Shown one piece after another: positions 18,867 to 32,654 of a DNA stretch of 47,652 nt. A model generated the notes under the pieces. The model had not been told where the DNA came from. It did no database searches and saw only the letters and a list, made by a program, of their open reading frames with translations. The stretch comes from Beijerinckiaceae bacterium. GTDB taxonomy: Bacteria > Pseudomonadota > Alphaproteobacteria > Rhizobiales > Beijerinckiaceae. The DNA is taken from assembly GCA_022702015.1 (NCBI GenBank), contig JAKONI010000204.1, positions 1-47,652 on the forward strand. The letters run 5' to 3'. The position numbers and the translations under genes were made by a program. Every line of letters starts with the position of its first letter. Within the stretch, counting starts at the first letter, position 1.

Positions 18867-19511
18867 ATGTACGTCGTAGTTGTCGCAAGCCAGAAGGGTG
18901 GAGCCGGCAAAACCTCGCTGATGCGCAGTCTCGCAGTCGCCACTCATCAAGCGGGACACGCCACTGCTCTTCTTGATACCGATCCACAGGGTTCGCTCAC
19001 CAGCTGGTGGAACCGTCGCGAAGACCAGGAACCGGCTCTCGTGCGGATCGAAGTCGCGGATTTCGCGGTCGGCGCCGAACGGCTGGCCGCCGCCGGGATC
19101 GAGTACCTGTTCGTCGACACGCCGCCGTCCGTCCGCCCCGAGTTGCGGACCCTGCTGGGCCATGCCAGCCTTGCCATCGTCCCGGTGCGCCCCTCCCCCG
19201 ATGACCTCGATGCGGTAGGCGATACCCTGTCGCTGATCGAGGATGCAGGCTGCCCGTTCGTTTTCGTACTGACCCAGGCGAAGCCCCGGACGCGACTGCA
19301 GATGCAGGCCGTAATGGCGCTGGCGAAGCACGGGAAGCTTGCCCCCACCGTCATTCACGACCGGACGGATTTCCCGACCGCCGCCATCGCCGGACGAGCC
19401 GTAACCGAGTTCGAGCCCGAGACGACCTCCGCCCGGGAAGTGAAGGAAGTGCTTGACTACGTACTGACGCAGCTGCGTAAAGATGCAAGCAAAGCGAAGG
19501 CGGGACGATGA
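18867..19511 (+). CDS. parA: ParA-family partition ATPase (short form)
   Basis: A 214-residue P-loop ATPase that drives segregation of a plasmid or island. The deviant Walker A QKGGAGKTS (Lys10, Lys15) lies at the N-terminus, the A-prime motif LLDTDPQGS near 37-45, and Walker B LFVDTPPS near residue 76. There is no N-terminal DNA-binding domain, so it is a type Ib-like ParA that relies on its partner for operator binding. It overlaps the downstream ribbon-helix-helix gene by 4 nt and is flanked by TACGT repeats. Confidence 0.9.
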   Translation: MYVVVVASQKGGAGKTSLMRSLAVATHQAGHATALLDTDPQGSLTSWWNRREDQEPALVRIEVADFAVGAERLAAAGIEYLFVDTPPSVRPELRTLLGHASLAIVPVRPSPDDLDAVGDTLSLIEDAGCPFVFVLTQAKPRTRLQMQAVMALAKHGKLAPTVIHDRTDFPTAAIAGRAVTEFEPETTSAREVKEVLDYVLTQLRKDASKAKAGR

Positions 19512-19938: not shown

Positions 19939-20331
19939 TCAACGGATAAGCTGCACCACGACGCCAGCGCCGACAGCGATCTCCTGCCAGGCGGCGTCGG
20001 CGGTAAGGGCGACAGAGTCTGAACGGGCAGCCAGCGCAAGACAGAGCCGGTCTCCGATCCCGAGCCCTTTCGCGCGGGTCAATGGCTCCAGCAGGGCGGC
20101 ACGGATGCAGAGATCGTCGTCGACGGTAGTCAGCGGGAACACGAGACCGTTTCGAAGACCCCTCACGGCGGCTTCATCGGCGCCTTTGCGGACCATCCAT
20201 CCGGCGACCTCCCCGAAATTTACACTGGTCATCGTGGTGGTGCCGCTGAACGCCGCCAGAACCTGTTCCCAACCCGGTTCCCGACGCAGGTAGGCGAGGA
20301 GGGCCGAGGCATCGAGGACGCTACGCGCCAC
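19939..20331 (-). CDS. PIN-domain toxin (VapC-like)
   Basis: I choose the GTG at 20331 (read as MARSVLDASALL), with GGAGG 6 nt upstream inside the antitoxin gene; longer frames read Arg-rich shadow sequence. About 130 residues. Acidic residues of a PIN nuclease are visible in SVLDASALLAYL, FGEVAGWM, GIGDRLCLALA and LTADAAW. VapC toxins are Mg-dependent RNases that usually cut tRNA or rRNA. The start overlaps the AbrB-type antitoxin by 11 nt, so the two form one leftward operon. Confidence 0.85.
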   Translation of the reverse strand: MARSVLDASALLAYLRREPGWEQVLAAFSGTTTMTSVNFGEVAGWMVRKGADEAAVRGLRNGLVFPLTTVDDDLCIRAALLEPLTRAKGLGIGDRLCLALAARSDSVALTADAAWQEIAVGAGVVVQLIR

Positions 20332-20635
20332 GGTCAGCCTCCACCGTAGATGGGTCGATTGGCTCGTTCGCCTCCGCCGATGTGCCTGCTTCTCTAGCCG
20401 CTTCGGCGCGGCGCGCCTTGAGGAAGGCATTCACCGAGGCCCCGTCATCCGACAGGAAAGAGGCTGCCTGCAGCTGAAGCTCGGCCATGGCAACCGCGAC
20501 TGAGCGCACCCGAAGCTCGCCCTCTACCATGGTCAACACGACGGGCCCACCAGCCTCGAGGCTGAGGGCTTTGCGGGCCTGGGCTGGGATGATTAATCGC
20601 CCACCGGCGTCGATCTTAGACAGCGTTGCATTCAT
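20321..20635 (-). CDS. AbrB/MazE-type antitoxin
   Basis: A 104-residue protein. The first 48 residues are a swapped-hairpin AbrB DNA-binding domain (LSKIDAGGRLIIPAQARKAL...GGPVVLTMVEGELRVRS). The remainder is an Ala/Glu-rich helical tail that would wrap the toxin. It sits upstream of and overlaps the PIN toxin gene, the usual VapB position, and probably represses its own promoter in the AT-rich interval after 20636. Confidence 0.85.
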   Translation of the reverse strand: MNATLSKIDAGGRLIIPAQARKALSLEAGGPVVLTMVEGELRVRSVAVAMAELQLQAASFLSDDGASVNAFLKARRAEAAREAGTSAEANEPIDPSTVEADRGA

Positions 20636-20929: not shown

Positions 20930-21538
20930 ATGGCTATGGCCCGTACCTTCGCCTACCTCCGCGTGTCGACCCTCAGCCAGACCACCGACAATCAGCAGCA
21001 GGAGATCGCCGCCTCAGGGTTTCAGGTTGAGCCGCAGCGCGTCATCACAGAAACTATCTCGGGCAGCGTGGCGACCTCTCAGCGTCGTGGCTTCGTTCGA
21101 CTGCTGGATCGCCTCGAGGCCGGCGATGTCCTGGTGGTGACTAAGCTCGACCGCTTGGGCCGCAATGCGATGGACGTCGGCGGCACGGTCGCGCGCTTGG
21201 CTGCGCTCGGCGTACGCGTTCACTGCTTAGCGCTGGGCGGCGTCGACCTCACCAGTTCGACCGGCAAGCTGACGATGGGCGTGATCAACGCTGTGGCCGA
21301 GTTCGAGCGCGACCTACTGATCGAAAGGACTCAGGCAGGGCTGTCGCGCGCCCGCGCTGCGGGCAAAGCAATCGGCCGACCTGCGAGCCTCAGTCCGGAT
21401 CAACGTCGACGTGCCGAACAGCTTATCCAGGAGGGACATGGCGCGTCCGCCGTCGCACGGGAACTCAAGGTCAACCGTGCTACTATTCGGCGGGTACAGG
21501 CCGCGATGCGCATCCACGGCCAATCCGAGATCGTATGA
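20930..21538 (+). CDS. Serine recombinase (resolvase/invertase family)
   Basis: A 202-residue protein. The catalytic domain begins ARTFAYLRVST, with the nucleophile Ser in RVS (residue 13, or 11 if the second ATG is used). Conserved stretches GDVLVVTKLDRLGRN, GKLTMGVINAVAEFERDLLIERT and the helix E follow, then a short Hin-type helix-turn-helix (ASAVARELKVNRATIRRV). It probably resolves plasmid multimers or a transposition cointegrate using the repeats upstream. All catalytic residues I can check are present. Confidence 0.92.
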   Translation: MAMARTFAYLRVSTLSQTTDNQQQEIAASGFQVEPQRVITETISGSVATSQRRGFVRLLDRLEAGDVLVVTKLDRLGRNAMDVGGTVARLAALGVRVHCLALGGVDLTSSTGKLTMGVINAVAEFERDLLIERTQAGLSRARAAGKAIGRPASLSPDQRRRAEQLIQEGHGASAVARELKVNRATIRRVQAAMRIHGQSEIV

Positions 21539-22757: not shown

Positions 22758-23651
22758 ATGACCATCACCGTGTCCGCCGACGGGCAGGATCCCGCACGCT
22801 TACCAGCTACTGGGGCGGGGCTGGAGGCGTCGCTGTGGATCCTGTCGGACCGGACGAAGCCAGGCCTGCGCGCCCTACTGGCGGGACCTGATCCTAGCCA
22901 GCCGAGCTGGGGCCACGTTTTCCTGCGCGAGGACTGGCTCGCCTCGTTTGCCAAGCTGTTCGATCTCCCGCCGGTCCAGGGCGGACCAGGAGAACAGATA
23001 CCGATCCGCCTCGAGGTCGAGGATGACGCCCGTCTGGGGCGGCGCCTCGTCGTCTCGATGAGCGACTGGCCGACCCCGACCCAGGCCGCCGCGGACACGC
23101 AACTGCGGCAGGAGCTGGAGCATCAGGGCCTATGGCGGCGCGGCGGCAGACCGGACCGGCTGCGCCAGCTTGTTGCCGTCATCCCCCGGGGTGGAGGTCC
23201 ACGCTGGGATGCGCTGGCGCCGGGGCTCCAGGCACGGCACGACGGCCGGATCACCCACCTCGCTGAGCGCGAAGTCAACCTCGACGACGCCGACGCCGTC
23301 ATCGCGGCCCTCGGCGACGCCAAGGACTTCGTCCACTGGGGCGGGGCTGACGCGGTGCTGGTCGTGACGGGGGACCGCCGGATCGGTTCGCGCACGTTCA
23401 GCGATCGGCGCGTGCTCGAGGCCGCCTGCACGATCGGCGCACCGTTGCTGACGCTGTCCGGTCCTGTCCCAACCCCGGTCGACCGGCTCGCATGGCACTC
23501 GTCGCCGATCCCCGGGGCCATCGAGGCTACGATCGTGGAAATCCTGCGCGGCGAGCTCAAACGGGCCGACCGCCCCCGGCTCGACCGCATCGCGGCGGCC
23601 CTAATGCGGGCCCGTCCAGAGGGCGACGCGACCGCCGATGCTCCGTTCTGA
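22758..23651 (+). CDS. Degenerate exonuclease VII large-subunit-like protein
   Basis: A 297-residue protein. I see an XseA-like order without the long coiled coil. Residues about 15-105 could be a diverged OB-fold. LRQELEHQGLWRRGG aligns with the KLAAEGLF segment of XseA. LVAVIPRGGGPRWDAL aligns with the VITSPTGAAIRDIL region and keeps the Asp. ADAVLVVTGDRR stands where XseA has the RGGGS motif, and LLTLSGPVPTPVD stands where it has GHETD. The catalytic Arg, His and second Asp are therefore missing, so it is probably a non-catalytic paralogue. It lies 101 nt before a full XseA on the same strand, suggesting a partner or regulatory subunit. Homology is inferred by eye. Confidence 0.55.
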   Translation: MTITVSADGQDPARLPATGAGLEASLWILSDRTKPGLRALLAGPDPSQPSWGHVFLREDWLASFAKLFDLPPVQGGPGEQIPIRLEVEDDARLGRRLVVSMSDWPTPTQAAADTQLRQELEHQGLWRRGGRPDRLRQLVAVIPRGGGPRWDALAPGLQARHDGRITHLAEREVNLDDADAVIAALGDAKDFVHWGGADAVLVVTGDRRIGSRTFSDRRVLEAACTIGAPLLTLSGPVPTPVDRLAWHSSPIPGAIEATIVEILRGELKRADRPRLDRIAAALMRARPEGDATADAPF

Positions 23652-23664
23652 TCCGACGCTGCCG

Positions 23665-23686
23665 GCCCGGACGCACGCGTCCGGGC
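23665..23686 (+). promoter_or_regulatory. Hairpin between the XseA-like gene and xseA
   Basis: GCCCGGACG and CGTCCGGGC form a perfect 9-bp stem around CACG, placed 14 nt after the XseA-like stop and 67 nt before the xseA start. No T-tract follows, so it could be an attenuator or RNA-stability hairpin that lowers expression of the catalytic subunit relative to its partner. Confidence 0.45.
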
Positions 23687-23752
23687 GAACCCCGGTGCGC
23701 TCACGCCCCGGGCCGATCACCCTCCCTCATCCGAGACAGATCACTCCCGCTC

Positions 23753-25108
23753 ATGCGTATCCACCTGTTCGACACCTCCCGGACGCCACCGACCGATCCT
23801 CTACCGGACCGGCCGATAGGCGGCTTCTCGCCACCACCGGACCCCTCCGGTCCGGTGCTCGACGTCCGCGAGGTGTGGGCGAGGGCCGGCAGCGCGGTGC
23901 GGACCAGCCTACCGCGGATCCTGCGGCTCACCGCGGGCGTCGCCCGGGTCGAACCCCGGGGACATGGCGGCTGCGACCTCGAGCTCGTGCCGAGCCACGG
24001 CGTGCCCGGGGGTACGTCACCGAGCCTACGCGCCCATATCAGCGTCGCGAACCGCGAGGCTATCGCCGTCGCTCTCGGACGCCCGTTCGACCCCATCGAG
24101 CTCACCCATCGCGATGTCACGCTGACCTGCGCCATCAACTGGCTGCACGACGGACGCTTGAGATTATCTGTGACCGCGATTGATCCTGGCTGGCGTGCCA
24201 GCGCGATCCAGCTCGAACGGGCCCGGGGATTGGAGGCGCTGACGCGCGCGGACCTGCTCGATGCCCAGCGCCGGCTACCTCAGCCCGCCTGTCTCGAACG
24301 CGTCAGCATCGTGTATCCCCCCGGGCAGGGTTACGAGGACGTCGCCGCGACCTTGGCCGCCCTCGAAGCCGCCGGCCTGATACAGGTCGACGATCTGCCT
24401 TGTCGGTTCGACGGGTCTGGGTCAGCCGCGGAGGTAGTCCAGCGCCTTGACGAGGCTGCTGCCCTGCATCGCGGGCGAGAACATCGTGGCCTTGTTTTGC
24501 TCGTGCGCGGTGGCGGAAGCCCGGCCCGCGCCCTCGATGCCCGCGAAGTCGCCGGGGCGATCGGCACCCTCTCCGTGCCGGTGGCGGTCGCGGTCGGCCA
24601 CCGCACCGACGCGCCGACGCTCGCCGATCTCACCGCCTGGAGAAGCCTGCCGACACCCTCCGAGGCCCGCCATCTCGTTCTCTCGCTCCTGGAGACCGCG
24701 GCGGAACATGCCGAGGGCGCTTGGGCGGATCTGCTCGCTGCCCTCAGGGACCTCGAGGCGAGCGTGTACCGGACGGGGATCGCCCGATGCGAGGCGGTCG
24801 CGGACGAGGCCGAGGCGTGTCTTTCCGCGGCCGAACGGCGGGCGGGAGCAGCTTCGATCGCCCTGGAGCGGGGGCTCGAACGGGTCCTCGCGTCGCTGGT
24901 CCCGACCCACGGTTCGGGCGTCGTATCCCCGGAGCCACCGCCGGTGCGACCGTCCCCGGCGGACGGGCTCGTCCGTCTCACCGGCCCGCTCGGCCAGCCG
25001 GTCCCCGACGCGGCATCGGCAGTCGGCCTCATGACCCTGACCTTCGCGGATGGGATGACGATCACCGTCGTCCGCGCCGAACTCCTCGATCCCGCCACCC
25101 TACATTGA
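23753..25108 (+). CDS. xseA: Exodeoxyribonuclease VII large subunit, divergent
   Basis: A 451-residue protein from ATG 23753. Residues about 35-140 form the N-terminal OB-fold that binds single-stranded DNA. The catalytic domain follows with VSIVYPPGQGYEDVAATLAA (Asp), VLLVRGGGSPARAL (Arg) and VAVAVGHRTDAPTLADL (His, Asp), all equivalents of the active-site residues known in E. coli XseA. A shortened Ala/Glu-rich helical region (about 320-390) replaces the long coiled coil, and the C-terminus LTFADGMTITVV is the usual beta tail. ExoVII degrades single-stranded DNA to oligonucleotides. The gene is followed 14 nt later by xseB. Divergence and mobile context suggest a plasmid-type version separate from the chromosomal enzyme. 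Confidence 0.85.
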   Translation: MRIHLFDTSRTPPTDPLPDRPIGGFSPPPDPSGPVLDVREVWARAGSAVRTSLPRILRLTAGVARVEPRGHGGCDLELVPSHGVPGGTSPSLRAHISVANREAIAVALGRPFDPIELTHRDVTLTCAINWLHDGRLRLSVTAIDPGWRASAIQLERARGLEALTRADLLDAQRRLPQPACLERVSIVYPPGQGYEDVAATLAALEAAGLIQVDDLPCRFDGSGSAAEVVQRLDEAAALHRGREHRGLVLLVRGGGSPARALDAREVAGAIGTLSVPVAVAVGHRTDAPTLADLTAWRSLPTPSEARHLVLSLLETAAEHAEGAWADLLAALRDLEASVYRTGIARCEAVADEAEACLSAAERRAGAASIALERGLERVLASLVPTHGSGVVSPEPPPVRPSPADGLVRLTGPLGQPVPDAASAVGLMTLTFADGMTITVVRAELLDPATLH

Positions 25109-25122
25109 GCTCCGATACCGCG

Positions 25123-25359
25123 ATGATGACCCCTGAGACTGACACACCCCTCACCCCCTCGTTCAACGAGGCGTTGGCACGCCTGGACGAACTCGCACGC
25201 GAGCTGCGGACCGGCGACCTTGACGAGCGCCTCGCGCGTCTGCCCCAGGATGTGGCCGAAGCCCACCGCCTCAAGCGTATCCTGCTCGACCGGTCGGTCG
25301 AGATTCGCGCGGCGATCGCCTGCCTGCGCGGCACGGCCAGACCGATCTTCCCAGCCTGA
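25123..25359 (+). CDS. xseB: Exodeoxyribonuclease VII small subunit
   Basis: A 78-residue, almost wholly helical protein. SFNEALARLDELARELRTGDL matches the XseB consensus of a first helix followed by the L-x-x-GDL turn, then a second helix DVAEAHRLKRILLDRSVEI. XseB binds the coiled coil of XseA in several copies per large subunit. I chose the first of two tandem ATGs, 14 nt after xseA. It completes a large plus small subunit pair next to the XseA-like gene. Confidence 0.8.
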   Translation: MMTPETDTPLTPSFNEALARLDELARELRTGDLDERLARLPQDVAEAHRLKRILLDRSVEIRAAIACLRGTARPIFPA

Positions 25360-26228: not shown

Positions 26229-26907
26229 ATGGGCACGAAGAAGCCGATCTCGCGCCCCGAGCTGGACGCGCTGATCAGACGCGCACGGAAGCGCGATCGC
26301 CGGCGACTTCTCCGACCCGGGGCTCAGGCGCATGAGCCGCCCCGGCAAACTCAGCGTCGAACTCAAGCGAGTTCGAGCCAGCGATCGCAGGCTGGAACCT
26401 TGGATGATGGCCAATCACTCGGCGCTAGAGCGCGAGTATGGGGGCGGCCGTCTCAACCTCAAAGAGCTCCTCGAGATCGCCCGTGCGAATGGGCTGACCA
26501 ATGAGCACGGTGGGCCCGTCACGGAAGCGACGATTTCGAAGACTTGGGCGCGTGTTCGCGCACGAAAAGCCCGAGCGGCATTACGTTCTTCCCCGGAACC
26601 GCGGAAGTTCCCGCCCGGCGTCGTCGAACTTCCTACCCCGGGTCAGGTGGCCGCTCGCGAGGATGCTCGAGATCGAGCCGCAACCGAGGAACCCTCGCGC
26701 GCGCGCCGACGGGCGTCCCCACAAAACGTCCCTGCGCAGACCTCACTCGCCGGCGGTGTGGCCCCCCGGGCGCCGCCGCTAGCGCTGTCCGGGCACGATC
26801 CCGGTCCCGCCGGTGGCTTGAGTGTCGACGAGCAGATCGCGCGCTTTCGTAGCGACCAGCGGGGGGGATCGCGGGAGATGCCGAAGTCCCTCGATGACAG
26901 CAAGTGA
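26229..26907 (+). pseudogene. Relaxase-associated hypothetical protein, possibly frameshifted at its 5-prime end
   Basis: The main frame from ATG 26332 gives 191 residues: a basic helical N-terminal half (RPGKLSVELKRVRASDRR, NLKELLEIARANGL, ATISKTWARVRARKAR), which could be DNA-binding, then a Pro/Ala-rich linker and a short C-terminal helix. Upstream, a different frame from ATG 26229 reads MGTKKPISRPELDALIRRAR. The main frame is open back to 26275 with the natural-looking AIAGDFSDPGLRRMSRPG. The two would join into one protein if a base were lost or gained near 26285-26300. Either the gene is frameshifted or it starts at 26332. Role unknown; position suggests a mobilisation accessory. Confidence 0.5.
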
Positions 26908-26934: not shown

Positions 26935-27876
26935 GTGTCGAGAAACAACGCCAGCACCAAGACGATCGATGCCCTTCCCACGTCCGATATCATTAGACCG
27001 CGCAACGATGGGGCGAGCGACATAGAGTTAGCCACAGAGATCGCGCGGACATCTGGTTTAGGCCGCGTTCAAACCATGGTCGTCCCGTACGCCCGCGGTA
27101 AGTCCGGCAAGTCGAAGATCAGCCGATTGCTCGTCGAGTGTGCGATGCTCGCGGGGATGCCGATGCGCTACAGCGATGCCGATCCCTCGAATGCCGGTCT
27201 GAAAGAGATATACCGCGACGCCATCAGCCCGGCCAGCGTCAATCCCCAGGACCTGATCGCCCATACCCGTACCGAGGTCGAAGAGTTCGTCGACGGCGGC
27301 GCGTCGTGTCTGATCGACTACGGCGCGGGTAATCCGACGTTCGAGGCGTGCCTACAGGAGATCGACCTGTCGCGCTTCATCAAGGAGCATGGCAAGCGAC
27401 TGCTCCTGTTCTGTCTGCTCGGCCCCACGCGAGGCGACCTCTCGTACATCGACGAATTCCTGCGTCATCCCTCTCTCACCGCAGCGGATGTCGTCCTGTG
27501 CTGCAACGAGGGCCTCACAGAACGGGGCCGCGAGATCCAGGCGTTCGAGCCTTGTCTCGAATCCCCCCAAGTCCGGGCTGCGATCGGGCGCGGTGCTCGC
27601 CTCATACGCCTACCGCGTCTGCATCCCGCCGAGCGGATCGAAGCCCTCGGGCTGACCTACCTCGACGCCGCACTGCGTCGACCCAACAGGGCGGGCCAGA
27701 GCCTCGGTGCGCTCGATGCGGGGATCACCGCGCAGTGGCTGAGGCAGTTGCCCCATGCCTTCGCGCCGATCCGGGACTGGATGACCTTCGCTCCAGTCGA
27801 GAGCCTCGTCGCAACGATGGAAGCGGAGCTGACCGCACGTGTCGCTGCGCGCGCCGATCGGGGAGCGGTGGTATGA
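26935..27876 (+). CDS. TraL/ParA-like P-loop NTPase of the mobilisation cluster
   Basis: A 313-residue protein starting at GTG 26935 with AGGAGA 5 nt upstream. A variant Walker A, ARGKSGKSKISRLL, sits near residue 54. MRYSDADPSNAGL supplies the switch-type Asp, and CLIDYGAGNP resembles Walker B. These fit the SIMIBI/MinD-ParA class that includes conjugation protein TraL. It is 27 nt after the preceding gene and overlaps the next by 4 nt. It probably helps DNA transfer or partitioning of the transferred strand; the exact role is unproven. Confidence 0.65.
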   Translation: MSRNNASTKTIDALPTSDIIRPRNDGASDIELATEIARTSGLGRVQTMVVPYARGKSGKSKISRLLVECAMLAGMPMRYSDADPSNAGLKEIYRDAISPASVNPQDLIAHTRTEVEEFVDGGASCLIDYGAGNPTFEACLQEIDLSRFIKEHGKRLLLFCLLGPTRGDLSYIDEFLRHPSLTAADVVLCCNEGLTERGREIQAFEPCLESPQVRAAIGRGARLIRLPRLHPAERIEALGLTYLDAALRRPNRAGQSLGALDAGITAQWLRQLPHAFAPIRDWMTFAPVESLVATMEAELTARVAARADRGAVV

Positions 27877-28535
27877 CCACTCACCCGCAACCCCTCACGC
27901 CCAAGCTTCCGCCGACGCCGGTCGAGGCTCAGCTTGCCCGCATTCACCGTCAGTTCGAGCGGGTCGGTGTCTCTACCGGGGAACCGCTCCACGACGCCCT
28001 GATCTCAACGACCGCCCTAGCGCGGATCGTCGATCACGAGCGGAGGGTTTTCAGTGGTGACGTTGGAGCACTCCGAGCGGACCTCGGACAGCATATCGTC
28101 GCGGTCGATGTCGCCCGCGAGAAGATCGAACAGGCCGCCAGTCGTTTCGGCAATGCCGCGGCGGAACTCGAGGCTCATAAGATCGCCATCGAGGCCATCA
28201 CGCTGGCCGATACCGCCTCGTACCTGGGGCGGGTCGGGCTTCTGATGGCTCGCACCGCCGCTCTCAGCGGCGGGATCGCCCTCGTCCTCGGGGGGGGCGG
28301 TGGTTACATGCTGGGAGATCGGCGAGCCTTTGGGTCCCAGCTCACCCTCGCCGAGCAGCTACGGCAAACGTACGGGATCGATACCCTCTCGGCGGCGACC
28401 TGGGATCCGCTCATCCAGCTCAACGATCCCCGTCCGTTCGTTCAGAAGTGCATCCGGAACGGCTACAAGCGGGTCGAGGACGGGCGTCGCGTCTGCGAGG
28501 TCACGCTCGTCTTCCCGCCGCCTCCGACCGAGTGA
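27873..28535 (+). CDS. Single-pass membrane protein of the mobilisation cluster
   Basis: A 220-residue protein from ATG 27873, overlapping the NTPase stop by 4 nt. The N-terminal 130 residues are helical and charged (coiled-coil-like IEQAASRFGNAAAELEAHK). A Gly-rich membrane helix, TAALSGGIALVLGGGGGYML, follows near residue 140. The last 75 residues would be outside the cytoplasm and include two Cys (QKCIRNG, RRVCEV). It may anchor the relaxosome or NTPase to the membrane. No named family is recognised. Confidence 0.65.
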   Translation: MTTHPQPLTPKLPPTPVEAQLARIHRQFERVGVSTGEPLHDALISTTALARIVDHERRVFSGDVGALRADLGQHIVAVDVAREKIEQAASRFGNAAAELEAHKIAIEAITLADTASYLGRVGLLMARTAALSGGIALVLGGGGGYMLGDRRAFGSQLTLAEQLRQTYGIDTLSAATWDPLIQLNDPRPFVQKCIRNGYKRVEDGRRVCEVTLVFPPPPTE

Positions 28536-29145: not shown

Positions 29146-29159
29146 GGTCCACACCCTTG

Positions 29160-32100
29160 ATGACCTACCTCACGGGGCGAGTGAGTACCCCCGCCCTGGC
29201 GATGGCGCGTCACTACCTGCAGGTGACGCTCCCGACCGACCTCAAAGAGGTCGCTGCCTACTATGGCTGGTCACACGACCTCGGTGCCGGGCCGGACGAG
29301 GGACGGCCCTCGCCGCGGCTACGGGCGGACCTCGATCCGCCCCTCGCCCGCCTGCTCGGCTTGGACCCCGCAGCCCCGCTCGACCTCGCCACCGTGGCCC
29401 ACCTGCTGGCCGGCCATCGCGCCGACGGACAGCCGATCCTGGGCAAGCAGGTCCAGGCGGGCGAGCGGGTGACGTTCATCGACCTGTGCTTCTCCGCCGA
29501 CAAGTCGGTGTCGATCGCTTGGGCGCTAGCGCCGACCGAGGCCGAGAGAGCCATCATCGCCCTGGCCCATCGCGAGGCGGTCGAGGCGACGATGGCCGGC
29601 GCCGTCGCCCCGCTGATCGGACGAGCCCGCCGCGGCAAGGCCGGGCGGGGTGGGGCGGAACTCGGCGCGATCGCGTGGCTGGCGTTCGACCATTGGACTA
29701 GCCGGCCTACGACCTTGGGGACAGACGATGGCAGCGAAGCCCTCACACGCGGGGACCCCCAGATCCACACTCATTGCCCCGTCCTCCACGTCGTGCGGAC
29801 TCCCGATGGGCGTGTGGGATCGCTGGATCTCCAACGCCTGCGGGGCCGGGTGCATGAGCTCGGGGCGATCTACCAGGCGTACCTCGCGCGTAACCTGCGA
29901 CGGGCCGGGATCGCGATGGCCCTCGATCCCGCCCACGACTGCGCCCGGATCGCGGCGATCCCGGAGGCCATCCGTGGAGCTTTTGCAAAGCGAACCGTGA
30001 TCGGTACGGCGGCCGCCTATGAATGGGCCCGCGAGCGGGGGCTCGACTGGGACGATCTCGATGCCCCCACGAGGATCGGCCTACTTAAGCAGGGGGTGCA
30101 AGGTGACCCGCGTGCGGCCAAGCGGGACGACCTCGGCGACCGTGCCGCCTGGCAGGCCGAGGCTGCGGCCCTCGGCTATGCGCATCCGGGTGTACTCGGC
30201 ACCGAGCCGTCCCGGCCGCCGTCGACCCTGGCGCGACGCCTGGAGCGGGCCTACGCGGTCGCCCTCGATCTGCTCGAGCCGCAGCTCGCGAACGCGGCGG
30301 TACTGCCGGAGAGTAATGTACGGCTGGCCGCGGCCCGCGCGCTGATCGCCGCCGGGATCGAGGGGGCGGACGAGATCGAGGGGGTTCTCGAACTGATCCA
30401 TACCCGGGGCGTCCGACAGGAGGGGCAAAGCGTGACGCTCCTCCCCGAGACTCCCGATCCCGAGGCCGATGGGACGGGCTGGCAGCGCACGGTCCGACGC
30501 TACACCACCGGGCTGCATCTGGAGCGCGAAGCCGAGCTCGTCCGGTTGGTGCGCGCAGCGGCCATGGAGCGGCGGGGGGCACTACGGACCGAAGCGATCA
30601 CCGTGGCGGTCGTGCGCTCGGGCCGGGACTTCGCCTCGACGGAGCACGGGCGCACGCAGCGGGAGGCGATGGACAGGCTCGGGACCGGCGCGGCCTTCAC
30701 CGCGGTGATCGGGGTCGCGGGCAGCGGCAAGACCACGCTGCTGCAGCCCCTGGTCGACGCCTACGCTACCGCGGGCGCGCGAGTGTTCGGCACGGCGCTC
30801 GGGTGGAAGCAGACGCGCGCGCTGACGGAGACCGGTATCCCGGCCGAGCGCTGCCTCGCGCTGGCGAAGTTGCTCGCGGACGGCGAGGGCGGCAAGCTCG
30901 CCCTGGGGCCGGAGACGGTGGTCGTCGTCGATGAACTCGGGCAGGTCGGAACCCGCGACCTGCTGCGATTGATGCGGTTGCGGGCCACCAACGGGGGCTT
31001 CCGAATCCTGGCGGTGGGGGACCCGCGCCAGTGCGCGTCGGTGGCGGCCGGGCCGGTGATCGAGTTGCTGCGGCAGGCCCTGGGTGAGGGGGTGATCCCG
31101 GAGATCCTGACGAGCGTGCGTCAACGCGATCAGCAGGAGCGTGAGACGACCGGCCTCTTCCGGGAGCGGCGGGCGAGCGAGGCGATCACGCGCAAGCGGC
31201 GGGATGGGACCGCGCGGCTCGTGCCGGGCCCGCCCGCCGCCGTCGCGGAGGCGGTCGCCGACCTGTGGTCGGAGCGGCGCACGGCCAACGCCGACAATCC
31301 AGGCTACAGCCTGTCGGTGAGTGCGCCGACCAACGCCGACGTGCTGATGCTGGCGAGAGCGATCCGGGCGCGGAGGCGGGACGCGGGCGAACTCGTCGGG
31401 CCGGATCGCCTCATCCCGGCGACCGACAACGTCGGACGCCAGTTCGACGTCATCCTGGCTGTGGGCGACAGGGTCCGACTGTTCGCGCGCACGCCAGCCC
31501 GGAGTGCCAGCGGGCAGACCCTGGAGATCGGGGTCAACGGCAGTGTGGTGATGGTCGAGGCGATGGAGCCGGAGGGGATCCGCATGCGCGATGCCAGTGG
31601 CCGCTCGGGGTTGGTGGCGTGGGCGACGCTGCGCCATCCCGCCTGCGATCCCACCGCGCCGCGCTTTCGGTTGGGTTACGGCGATGTCCTGACGATCGAC
31701 AGCATCCAGGGCGTAACGAGCGAGGAGAGCCTTTTCGTCATGCCGAACGGGTCCGCCTCCGTCGACGCCTTCCGCGGCTACACCGCGGCGAGCCGGCACC
31801 GGGCACGGAGCTACCTGATCTGCGGCGAGGGGGCCGAGCGGGCGGCGATCGAGGGCCGCCGTCCGATCGGGGGCCGTCGCCCCATCACGGAAGACGAGAT
31901 CTGGGAGCGGGTGGCGGCCAACCTCTCGCGAGAGCCCGTGGCGGTGACGGCAACGGGTCTGGTCGCACGGACTCGACAGGCCGAGGCCAAGGCCCGACGG
32001 ACGTTGCCCCTGGCGATGGCTCCGATCGAAGCGATGGAACGGCGGGGCCTGACCCGAGCCAGCCTGAGGCGGGGGTTCGAGCGCGGCCGGGAGATAGAGG

Positions 32101-32654
32101 TCCTGACGGATTGGACGGAGGTGATCGTCGAGCCGATCGATCGGCAACTTACCGGCACGGCCGAGCTGGCCGATAGACTGTCCCGCCGGGTGGAGGGCGC
32201 GGTTCCCCGGGAGACGATCGAGCCGCCGAAACCGGGGGGCTTCGGCCGCGGCCGGATCCTGCGACGCGTCGAGGTGTGGGCGGAGGGGATCGGGGAACTG
32301 CTCGCGCAGCAGCTCTCCCAGATGAGTGTCCTGGCGGACAGCTTCTCCGACCCGGCACGCGATATCATGGTGAGGCCAGGCCGGCTCGCCCGGAAATTCG
32401 TGCGACGGCGGGATATGCAGAGACTCGACGATTGGGGGCATTCACTGGCCGAATGGCTGGGATGGCAGGTGGAAACCAGTCGCGCGATCCTCGTGGCGAT
32501 CTCGAAGAGATCCCCCGAGGGACCGGCCGGTCCGATCGTCGAGCCGGTGCCTAGCCCGATGGAGAGTGCGGCCGGGCCGGAGAAGACGGGGGTGCGACGC
32601 AGACCGGCGAAGCGGGCACGAGGTAAGGGAGAGGGTTCCGGATCGGAGAGATGA
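29160..32654 (+). CDS. MobF-family relaxase-helicase (TrwC/TraA type)
   Basis: A 1164-residue conjugative relaxase. The N-terminal trans-esterase has Tyr pairs (MARHYLQV, VAAYYGW), FSADKSVSIAWAL, and the metal-binding IHTHCPVLH near residues 202-208, where the usual HTHxxxxN ends in His. The C-terminal superfamily-1 helicase has Walker A GVAGSGKTTLL (about 517-527), Walker B VVVVDELGQVG, motif III AVGDPRQCASV, motif V TIDSIQGVTSEE and motif VI YTAASRHR, so it looks complete. It nicks oriT, stays bound to the 5-prime end and unwinds the strand. No coupling protein or type IV secretion genes are present here, so transfer machinery must be elsewhere or supplied by another plasmid. The C-terminal 250 residues are Arg-rich and lack known domains. 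Confidence 0.93.
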   Translation: MTYLTGRVSTPALAMARHYLQVTLPTDLKEVAAYYGWSHDLGAGPDEGRPSPRLRADLDPPLARLLGLDPAAPLDLATVAHLLAGHRADGQPILGKQVQAGERVTFIDLCFSADKSVSIAWALAPTEAERAIIALAHREAVEATMAGAVAPLIGRARRGKAGRGGAELGAIAWLAFDHWTSRPTTLGTDDGSEALTRGDPQIHTHCPVLHVVRTPDGRVGSLDLQRLRGRVHELGAIYQAYLARNLRRAGIAMALDPAHDCARIAAIPEAIRGAFAKRTVIGTAAAYEWARERGLDWDDLDAPTRIGLLKQGVQGDPRAAKRDDLGDRAAWQAEAAALGYAHPGVLGTEPSRPPSTLARRLERAYAVALDLLEPQLANAAVLPESNVRLAAARALIAAGIEGADEIEGVLELIHTRGVRQEGQSVTLLPETPDPEADGTGWQRTVRRYTTGLHLEREAELVRLVRAAAMERRGALRTEAITVAVVRSGRDFASTEHGRTQREAMDRLGTGAAFTAVIGVAGSGKTTLLQPLVDAYATAGARVFGTALGWKQTRALTETGIPAERCLALAKLLADGEGGKLALGPETVVVVDELGQVGTRDLLRLMRLRATNGGFRILAVGDPRQCASVAAGPVIELLRQALGEGVIPEILTSVRQRDQQERETTGLFRERRASEAITRKRRDGTARLVPGPPAAVAEAVADLWSERRTANADNPGYSLSVSAPTNADVLMLARAIRARRRDAGELVGPDRLIPATDNVGRQFDVILAVGDRVRLFARTPARSASGQTLEIGVNGSVVMVEAMEPEGIRMRDASGRSGLVAWATLRHPACDPTAPRFRLGYGDVLTIDSIQGVTSEESLFVMPNGSASVDAFRGYTAASRHRARSYLICGEGAERAAIEGRRPIGGRRPITEDEIWERVAANLSREPVAVTATGLVARTRQAEAKARRTLPLAMAPIEAMERRGLTRASLRRGFERGREIEVLTDWTEVIVEPIDRQLTGTAELADRLSRRVEGAVPRETIEPPKPGGFGRGRILRRVEVWAEGIGELLAQQLSQMSVLADSFSDPARDIMVRPGRLARKFVRRRDMQRLDDWGHSLAEWLGWQVETSRAILVAISKRSPEGPAGPIVEPVPSPMESAAGPEKTGVRRRPAKRARGKGEGSGSER

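Follow-up and report, generated by a model that had tools for sequence, protein, structure and literature searches.

A three-gene exonuclease VII-like set with an apparently nuclease-dead XseA paralogue, linked to relaxase genes of three families in Methylobacterium and Methylorubrum

What is an extra set of exonuclease VII (ExoVII) genes, one of them stripped of its active site, doing beside genes for DNA mobilisation? The question is raised by positions 22758-25359 of a 47,652-nucleotide contig from a Beijerinckiaceae bacterium (JAKONI010000204.1 of assembly GCA_022702015.1; contig C344 of this draft genome), the whole of which was analysed and is here called the window. As a preliminary description made from the sequence had it, three genes lie here in one direction, and we refer to them as open reading frames (ORFs) 1 to 3:

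22758..23651, plus strand: ORF1, pseudo-XseA, 297 amino acids (aa); OB fold and nuclease-fold domain, without the RGGG, GH or TD catalytic motifs
23753..25108, plus strand: ORF2, XseA-like large subunit, 451 aa from the ATG at 23753
25123..25359, plus strand: ORF3, XseB-like small subunit, start at ATG 25123 or 25126, 77-78 aa; under the curated family cut-offs

The ATG at 23753 is the best reading of the ORF2 start, the longest mechanical ORF beginning at 23492 and overlapping ORF1, and the intergenic gaps are 101 nucleotides (nt) between ORF1 and ORF2 and, with the later ORF3 start, 17 nt between ORF2 and ORF3. Since the same genome, which plasmid matches place in Methylobacterium/Methylorubrum, carries a separate chromosomal-type xseA (contig C40, 289.8 bits) and xseB (contig C241, 76.7 bits), the trio is an additional ExoVII-like set. 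By computation we observe a sequence and fold relationship of ORF1 to XseA, loss of its catalytic motifs, purifying selection, conserved gene order and linkage to three relaxase families, and we regard as evenly poised the proposal that the trio is a mobile-element variant of ExoVII placed behind relaxase genes, with ORF1 as a cap, which trims or clears the strands that relaxases make.

ORF1 matches nothing in Pfam at E values up to 1, and its profile finds nothing meaningful among Protein Data Bank sequences (best 3ou8, E 0.75). Profile comparison and fold search both relate it to XseA, which rules out that the two are unrelated, and the fold search finds the OB and nuclease fold of XseA in it; this clear similarity leaves the earlier reading of ORF1 as an XseA paralogue standing. 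The predicted model ends with two helices (252-269 and 272-284), beyond which no strands follow, and lacks both the long XseB-binding helix and the C-terminal barrel. In the joint alignment of 65 proteins used for all motif counts, the four catalytic equivalents are present in all 17 XseA frames from the chromosome search and all five plasmid XseA proteins, whereas the set is kept in none of the 23 ORF1 rows, where the equivalents of the catalytic Asp, Arg, His and Asp occur in 3, 4, 1 and 0 rows, respectively. No ORF1 has more than two of them, the second copy at locus L094 having Asp and Arg, and in the window the first Asp is the sole one left, which bears out the losses reported earlier (Arg, His and the second Asp). 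Model and alignment together support the view of ORF1 as a putative non-catalytic partner with an XseA fold.

ORF2 scores 79.6 bits against PF02601, above the gathering cut-off of 35.9, and 81.3 bits against the xseA equivalog TIGR00237, below the cut-off of 180, and is therefore classed as a divergent XseA-type paralogue and not as xseA. Its fold matches solved ExoVII (Foldseek, 8txr, E 4.1e-19, with low TM-scores of 0.30-0.45), and its model has a single 81-residue helix (302-382) followed by C-terminal strands. The active-site Asp, Arg and His/Asp ascribed to it are indeed all kept, as D196, R252, H283 and D286. In the E. coli enzyme, whose substrate is single-stranded DNA (ssDNA), H238 is named in the title of structure 8txr, and D155 is described as catalytic in a passage of PMC11077951. 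The match of ORF3 to the small subunit is weaker than had been claimed (15.3 bits against PF02609, cut-off 24; 18.3 bits against TIGR01280, cut-off 35), but what stands is a small gene beside the large-subunit gene with a relationship to annotated XseB, since a profile of the trio small proteins recovers each of the four annotated XseB proteins of plasmids on which it was tried, with E values of 2e-8 to 9e-4 in a set of 13 proteins. Being under both cut-offs it is named XseB-like, a call made from position and family conservation.

ORF1 is under purifying selection: the ratio of nonsynonymous to synonymous substitution rates (dN/dS) is 0.12-0.48 over 18 chosen locus pairs, at most 0.30 in 17 of them and below that of ORF2 in 14, and on these grounds its being a pseudogene is rejected. 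A quick tree, in which long branches make deep placements unsure, places ORF1 in a single clade (SH-aLRT 98) separate from the main ORF2 clade (96), with two of the 20 ORF2 rows, L094 and the Microvirga plasmid copy (L010), outside the latter. Over 22 of the 35 trio loci described below, ORF1 distances correlate with those of ORF2 (r 0.973; 0.924 inside one clade) and of ORF3 (0.921; 0.749 inside one clade), although correlation of this sort is also expected for linked genes.

Among 111 Methylobacterium and Methylorubrum genomes, the ORF1 profile has matches in 26, those in G018 and G648 being weak and inside long XseA frames. Strong ORF2 places (at least 340 bits) number 37, and ORF1 lies upstream in 34, damaged in two of these (truncated at L029, an in-frame stop at L082). 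With a Methylobacterium bullatum plasmid (L011), the only plasmid record with ORF1, this makes 35 loci; ORF3 was found in 33, ORF2 is broken at L087, and L089 runs off the contig end. The trio is thus a conserved neighbourhood, and together with the fold search these 35 loci support the dedicated ExoVII with a pseudo-subunit of the preliminary description, taken here as an ExoVII-like set of mobile elements in which the partner with the XseA fold is non-catalytic. Outside the 35 loci there are an ORF1 that stands at the end of its contig in G035 (L075), an incomplete ORF1 in G643 (contig C653), broken ORF1 pieces in G653 (C1, about 1523-1524 kb) and the second ORF1 of L029; the count of 37 likewise excludes partial ORF2 pieces under 340 bits (G667:C83, G643:C489, G051:C343). 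No ORF1 was found outside the genus in samples of the order (397 genomes) and class (385 genomes); two weak profile hits in the former and twelve hits in the latter all fall in frames of at least 400 aa that match the XseA profile, and a wider taxonomic spread was rejected accordingly, absence from a sample not being proof. A scan of a contig collection, with one ORF1 clade as query, gave 17 loci, every title naming Methylobacterium or Methylorubrum. A family search with the lone window protein, run at a stricter limit (1e-6) and with few candidates scored, found its own genome only, though the genus has others.

Some loci depart from the standard order. L094 (G658:C36, 3575-7529) has four genes: two successive ORF1-like ones precede a more divergent XseA-like gene and a small one that is XseB-like, and downstream of these come a SprT-like and a MobP gene. 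At L034, L035, L036, L077 and L078 a 208-codon frame upstream of ORF1 weakly matches ORF1 positions 1-56 and is probably the remnant of a duplicated ORF1. At L029 (G011:C69, 9236-14753) the trio's own ORF1 lacks its N-terminus, and a further ORF1, this one complete, is found about 4 kb from the trio, beyond a resolvase-like gene.

The mobilisation genes reported near the trio are real, and in the window comprise the following:

26332..26907, plus strand: mobilisation-module gene 1, 191 aa; no family match; conserved with L011, L030, L032, L081, L084 and L092
26935..27876, plus strand: mobilisation-module gene 2, 313 aa; no Pfam match; 50-52% identity to three relatives beside MobF
27873..28535, plus strand: mobilisation-module gene 3, 220 aa
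28849..29145, plus strand: mobilisation-module gene 4, relative of a 104-aa L011 protein; start placed by eye from the relative
29157..32654, plus strand: MobF/TrwC-type relaxase-helicase, 1165 aa; NF041492 149 bits against a cut-off of 100

A relaxase gene lies within 10.7 kb of the trio in 23 of the 35 loci, every one of the 23 on the trio strand, and 17 of the 22 clusters into which ORF2 falls at 95% have a linked member. The link to MobF holds for the window, but elsewhere the relaxase may also be MobP or MobQ: nine of the linked relaxases are MobF, seven MobP (PF03432/NF041893) and seven MobQ (PF03389), as assigned by family scans of representatives and whole genomes and, for the remaining ones, by similarity. 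The relaxase match ends 280-523 nt before ORF1 in ten MobF/MobP-type loci (L039 counted), and at L080 about 510 nt separate the end of the MobQ gene from ORF1. Of the 24 genomes with a trio 12 have MobF, against 19 of the 87 others (p 0.01). With 63 relaxase places in the 24 trio genomes, about 1% of positions fall within 11 kb of one, a null that is generous to linkage since both kinds of gene sit on mobile DNA and the loci are relatives of one another; 22 linked of 34 would still be unexpected at ten times that relaxase density. In the trio genomes, the MobQ genes that neighbour a trio score low (51-56 bits) and make up a group distinct from the MobQ genes of 185-240 bits, none of which is close to a trio.

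The trio furthermore moves as a unit relative to the relaxase genes, because similarity across relaxase types is confined to the trio stretch. In the pairs compared, ORF2 is 96-97% identical between L030 (MobF), L031 and L079 (MobP) and L080 (MobQ), and loci with different relaxases are 90-94% identical in DNA from -456 or -230 to about +2755 to +2944, while blastn finds nothing outside the shared stretch (E 1e-10, pieces over 150 bp, same strand). L030 and L031 lie about 60 kb apart in one genome. The cassette edges show no shared 12-mers. A leader that lies about 230 bp ahead of ORF1 in L030 and its relatives is strongly conserved and goes along with the cassette; an Rfam search, which covered the window, gave no match.

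How might such a set work? In E. coli ExoVII, a 2024 structure paper is reported to show, XseA dimers are joined by the long helix and barrel, are coated by XseB and meet through their OB and nuclease domains. Relaxases attach to the 5' end of the nicked strand via a tyrosine. Complex formation, activity, substrate and biological role may be proposed as follows. ORF2 would be the ssDNA nuclease subunit and ORF3 the small subunit binding its helix, while ORF1, which in the model retains just the OB and nuclease-fold domains, through which the XseA dimers of the E. coli enzyme contact each other, would most likely substitute for one half of the assembly and cap an ORF2-ORF3 half-assembly, so limiting or directing how ssDNA reaches the active sites of ORF2. 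The trio would travel as a cassette behind the relaxase genes of mobilisable elements and most likely trim or clear relaxase-generated single strands, possibly including 5' ends still bound to the relaxase tyrosine; relaxase-made ssDNA is suggested as the substrate because the cassette sits behind different relaxases. The action on transfer DNA raised in the preliminary description thus gains from the linkage in 23 loci to three families, which is also its one line of support. Only tentatively do we go further and suggest a three-subunit ExoVII, half of it a dedicated dead subunit, that serves as a swappable cassette resolving relaxase-DNA adducts or clearing leftover transfer strands for any relaxase family, and so would be a clean-up of conjugation encoded by the element itself. 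A passage of PMC11077951 describes ExoVII as able to remove 5' tyrosyl adducts.

A SprT-like gene follows the trio in nine of the 35 loci (six of the 22 clusters), and two of these genes were scanned, both scoring above the PF10263 cut-off; the 111 genomes hold 14 SprT-like places, 13 above the cut-off and eight within 10 kb of a trio. Spartan cleaves DNA-protein crosslinks, as stated in a part of PMC7213743, and such a neighbour is compatible with adduct processing while being no proof of it.

Several observations weigh against the proposed capped nuclease behind relaxase genes. In 13 of 20 ORF2 rows Thr or Ser stands in place of the fourth catalytic Asp, with Asp, Arg and His kept (e.g. L030, L033, L037), and activity there is uncertain. 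Within the available flank, 12 of the 35 loci have no relaxase (L027, L028, L029, L034, L036, L038, L077, L082, L087, L088, L089 and L090). L029 and L090 have a MobF farther away on the same contig. L034, L036 and L077 resemble L035 and L078 in their scores, as L038 does L085, but their contigs stop short of the MobQ position; L082 and L087 have no relaxase in about 9-11 kb on either side. At L093 the 150-residue filter removed a MobP piece of 45 residues, on the opposite strand and at the end of the contig. The MobP of L039 is probably broken, its 821-codon frame having only the end of the relaxase domain, and a PF03432 scan of that genome gave no match. Relaxases do not need the trio, as the 19 trio-less genomes with MobF make clear, and ORF1 is not always needed, since ORF2 and ORF3 occur without it in G013, G053 and G667 (L114, L115 and L116, of the same broad clade; the contig at the G667 place reaches only about 0.7 kb upstream) and in the Microvirga plasmid set. 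The window itself has no credible SprT-like gene, and ArdC of R388, although structurally Spartan-like, acts in antirestriction without needing protease activity according to a part of PMC7213743; by analogy, the SprT-like plasmid proteins may be antirestriction proteins.

A possible, if doubtful, alternative is that the trio is a plasmid-maintenance or repair ExoVII without any special tie to relaxases, that ORF1 is a regulator restraining XseA, and that the linkage reflects the small size of the elements. In agreement with this, 143 records of the plasmid collection, from many genera and numerous in Acinetobacter and Pseudomonas, have XseA-type matches, some of these records being chromosome-sized; ParA-like genes lie near nine of the 35 trios; and five plasmid xseA/xseB stretches of about 11 kb lack an annotated relaxase (pCAR1 has mobI), which likewise counts against the relaxase proposal. 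Near-identical trios lying co-directionally behind three relaxase families, with all linked relaxases on the trio strand, are however poorly explained by it, and so is the excess over the roughly 1% expected from relaxase density, bearing in mind what that null ignores.

It is unlikely that the trio serves in defence or exclusion, degrading the incoming ssDNA of competing elements with ORF1 as sensor or gate. ExoVII acts on ssDNA, conjugation delivers ssDNA and a dead paralogue could sense it; moreover, phage exonucleases of the ExoVII kind exist, and ORF2 matches phrog_9454 (E 3.3e-5). The three window proteins nonetheless match none of the PADLOC-DB families at E up to 0.01, ORF2 has no match in phage records and no ORF1 relative was confirmed in viral contigs, and the anti-phage role mentioned in the preliminary description therefore finds no support.

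Rather improbable, too, is a complex that mainly binds ssDNA or protects its ends, a notion that draws on the replaced fourth Asp of one ORF2 clade and on the loss of the catalytic set in every ORF1 row, but that sits badly with a window clade keeping all four ORF2 residues and with Asp, Arg and His in all 20 ORF2 rows (the fourth Asp in seven). That ORF1 is a decaying duplicate without function, as its lost motifs, its two missing C-terminal regions and the damaged copies at L082 and L029 might hint, has next to no probability, given dN/dS below 0.5 in 18 of 18 pairs, distances that follow those of ORF2 and a single well supported clade.

Upstream of the trio, two further window genes were assigned by family scan:

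18867-19511: ParA-type partition gene
20930-21538: serine resolvase gene

Between them, at 19939-20635 on the minus strand, a small pair read by eye resembles a PIN-type toxin and an AbrB-like antitoxin.

If the proposed capped nuclease is correct, the trio would give a textbook nuclease a heteromeric form that includes a pseudo-subunit, and would point to a nuclease step in DNA mobilisation. To our knowledge, the fate of the covalent relaxase-DNA end and of stray transfer strands is poorly defined, and a cassette behind three relaxase families would make it testable by deletion; the trio would also be a natural experiment on how ExoVII assembly controls active-site access. Among the literature matches listed, mostly outside subscription journals, none describes a dead ExoVII subunit or an ExoVII working with relaxases, and the parts consulted of PMC11541004, on leading-region anti-defence genes, and of PMC10815813 have nothing on ExoVII.

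Compared with known systems, the trio resembles E. coli ExoVII (8txr) in that ORF2 has the OB fold, nuclease fold, helical segment and C-terminal strands, in the window with the catalytic Asp/Arg/His/Asp, and adjoins a small-subunit gene. It differs in its third gene for a shortened, nuclease-dead XseA paralogue, in the ORF2 helix, which at 81 residues in the model is apparently shorter (the alignment has an insert there), in its location on a mobile element and in scores that stay under the equivalog cut-offs for xseA and xseB. That mobile DNA can carry an extra ExoVII is not new, given the 143 plasmid records and the five with an xseA/xseB pair: plasmids of Pseudomonas (pCAR1), P. luteola, Variovorax, Acinetobacter and Microvirga likewise carry an extra xseA beside xseB or an XseB-like gene, xseB coming before xseA in two of the five records examined and after it in three. 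Unlike the trio, six plasmid stretches have no ORF1 relative in any frame, the ORF1 profile matching XseA frames only. As regards ArdC of R388 and the SprT/Spartan proteases, a SprT-like gene follows some trios, as described above, but the trio itself is no protease. Finally, pseudoenzyme partners of active enzymes are a general concept, and as in those the trio has a dead paralogue encoded beside the active one and held under purifying selection.

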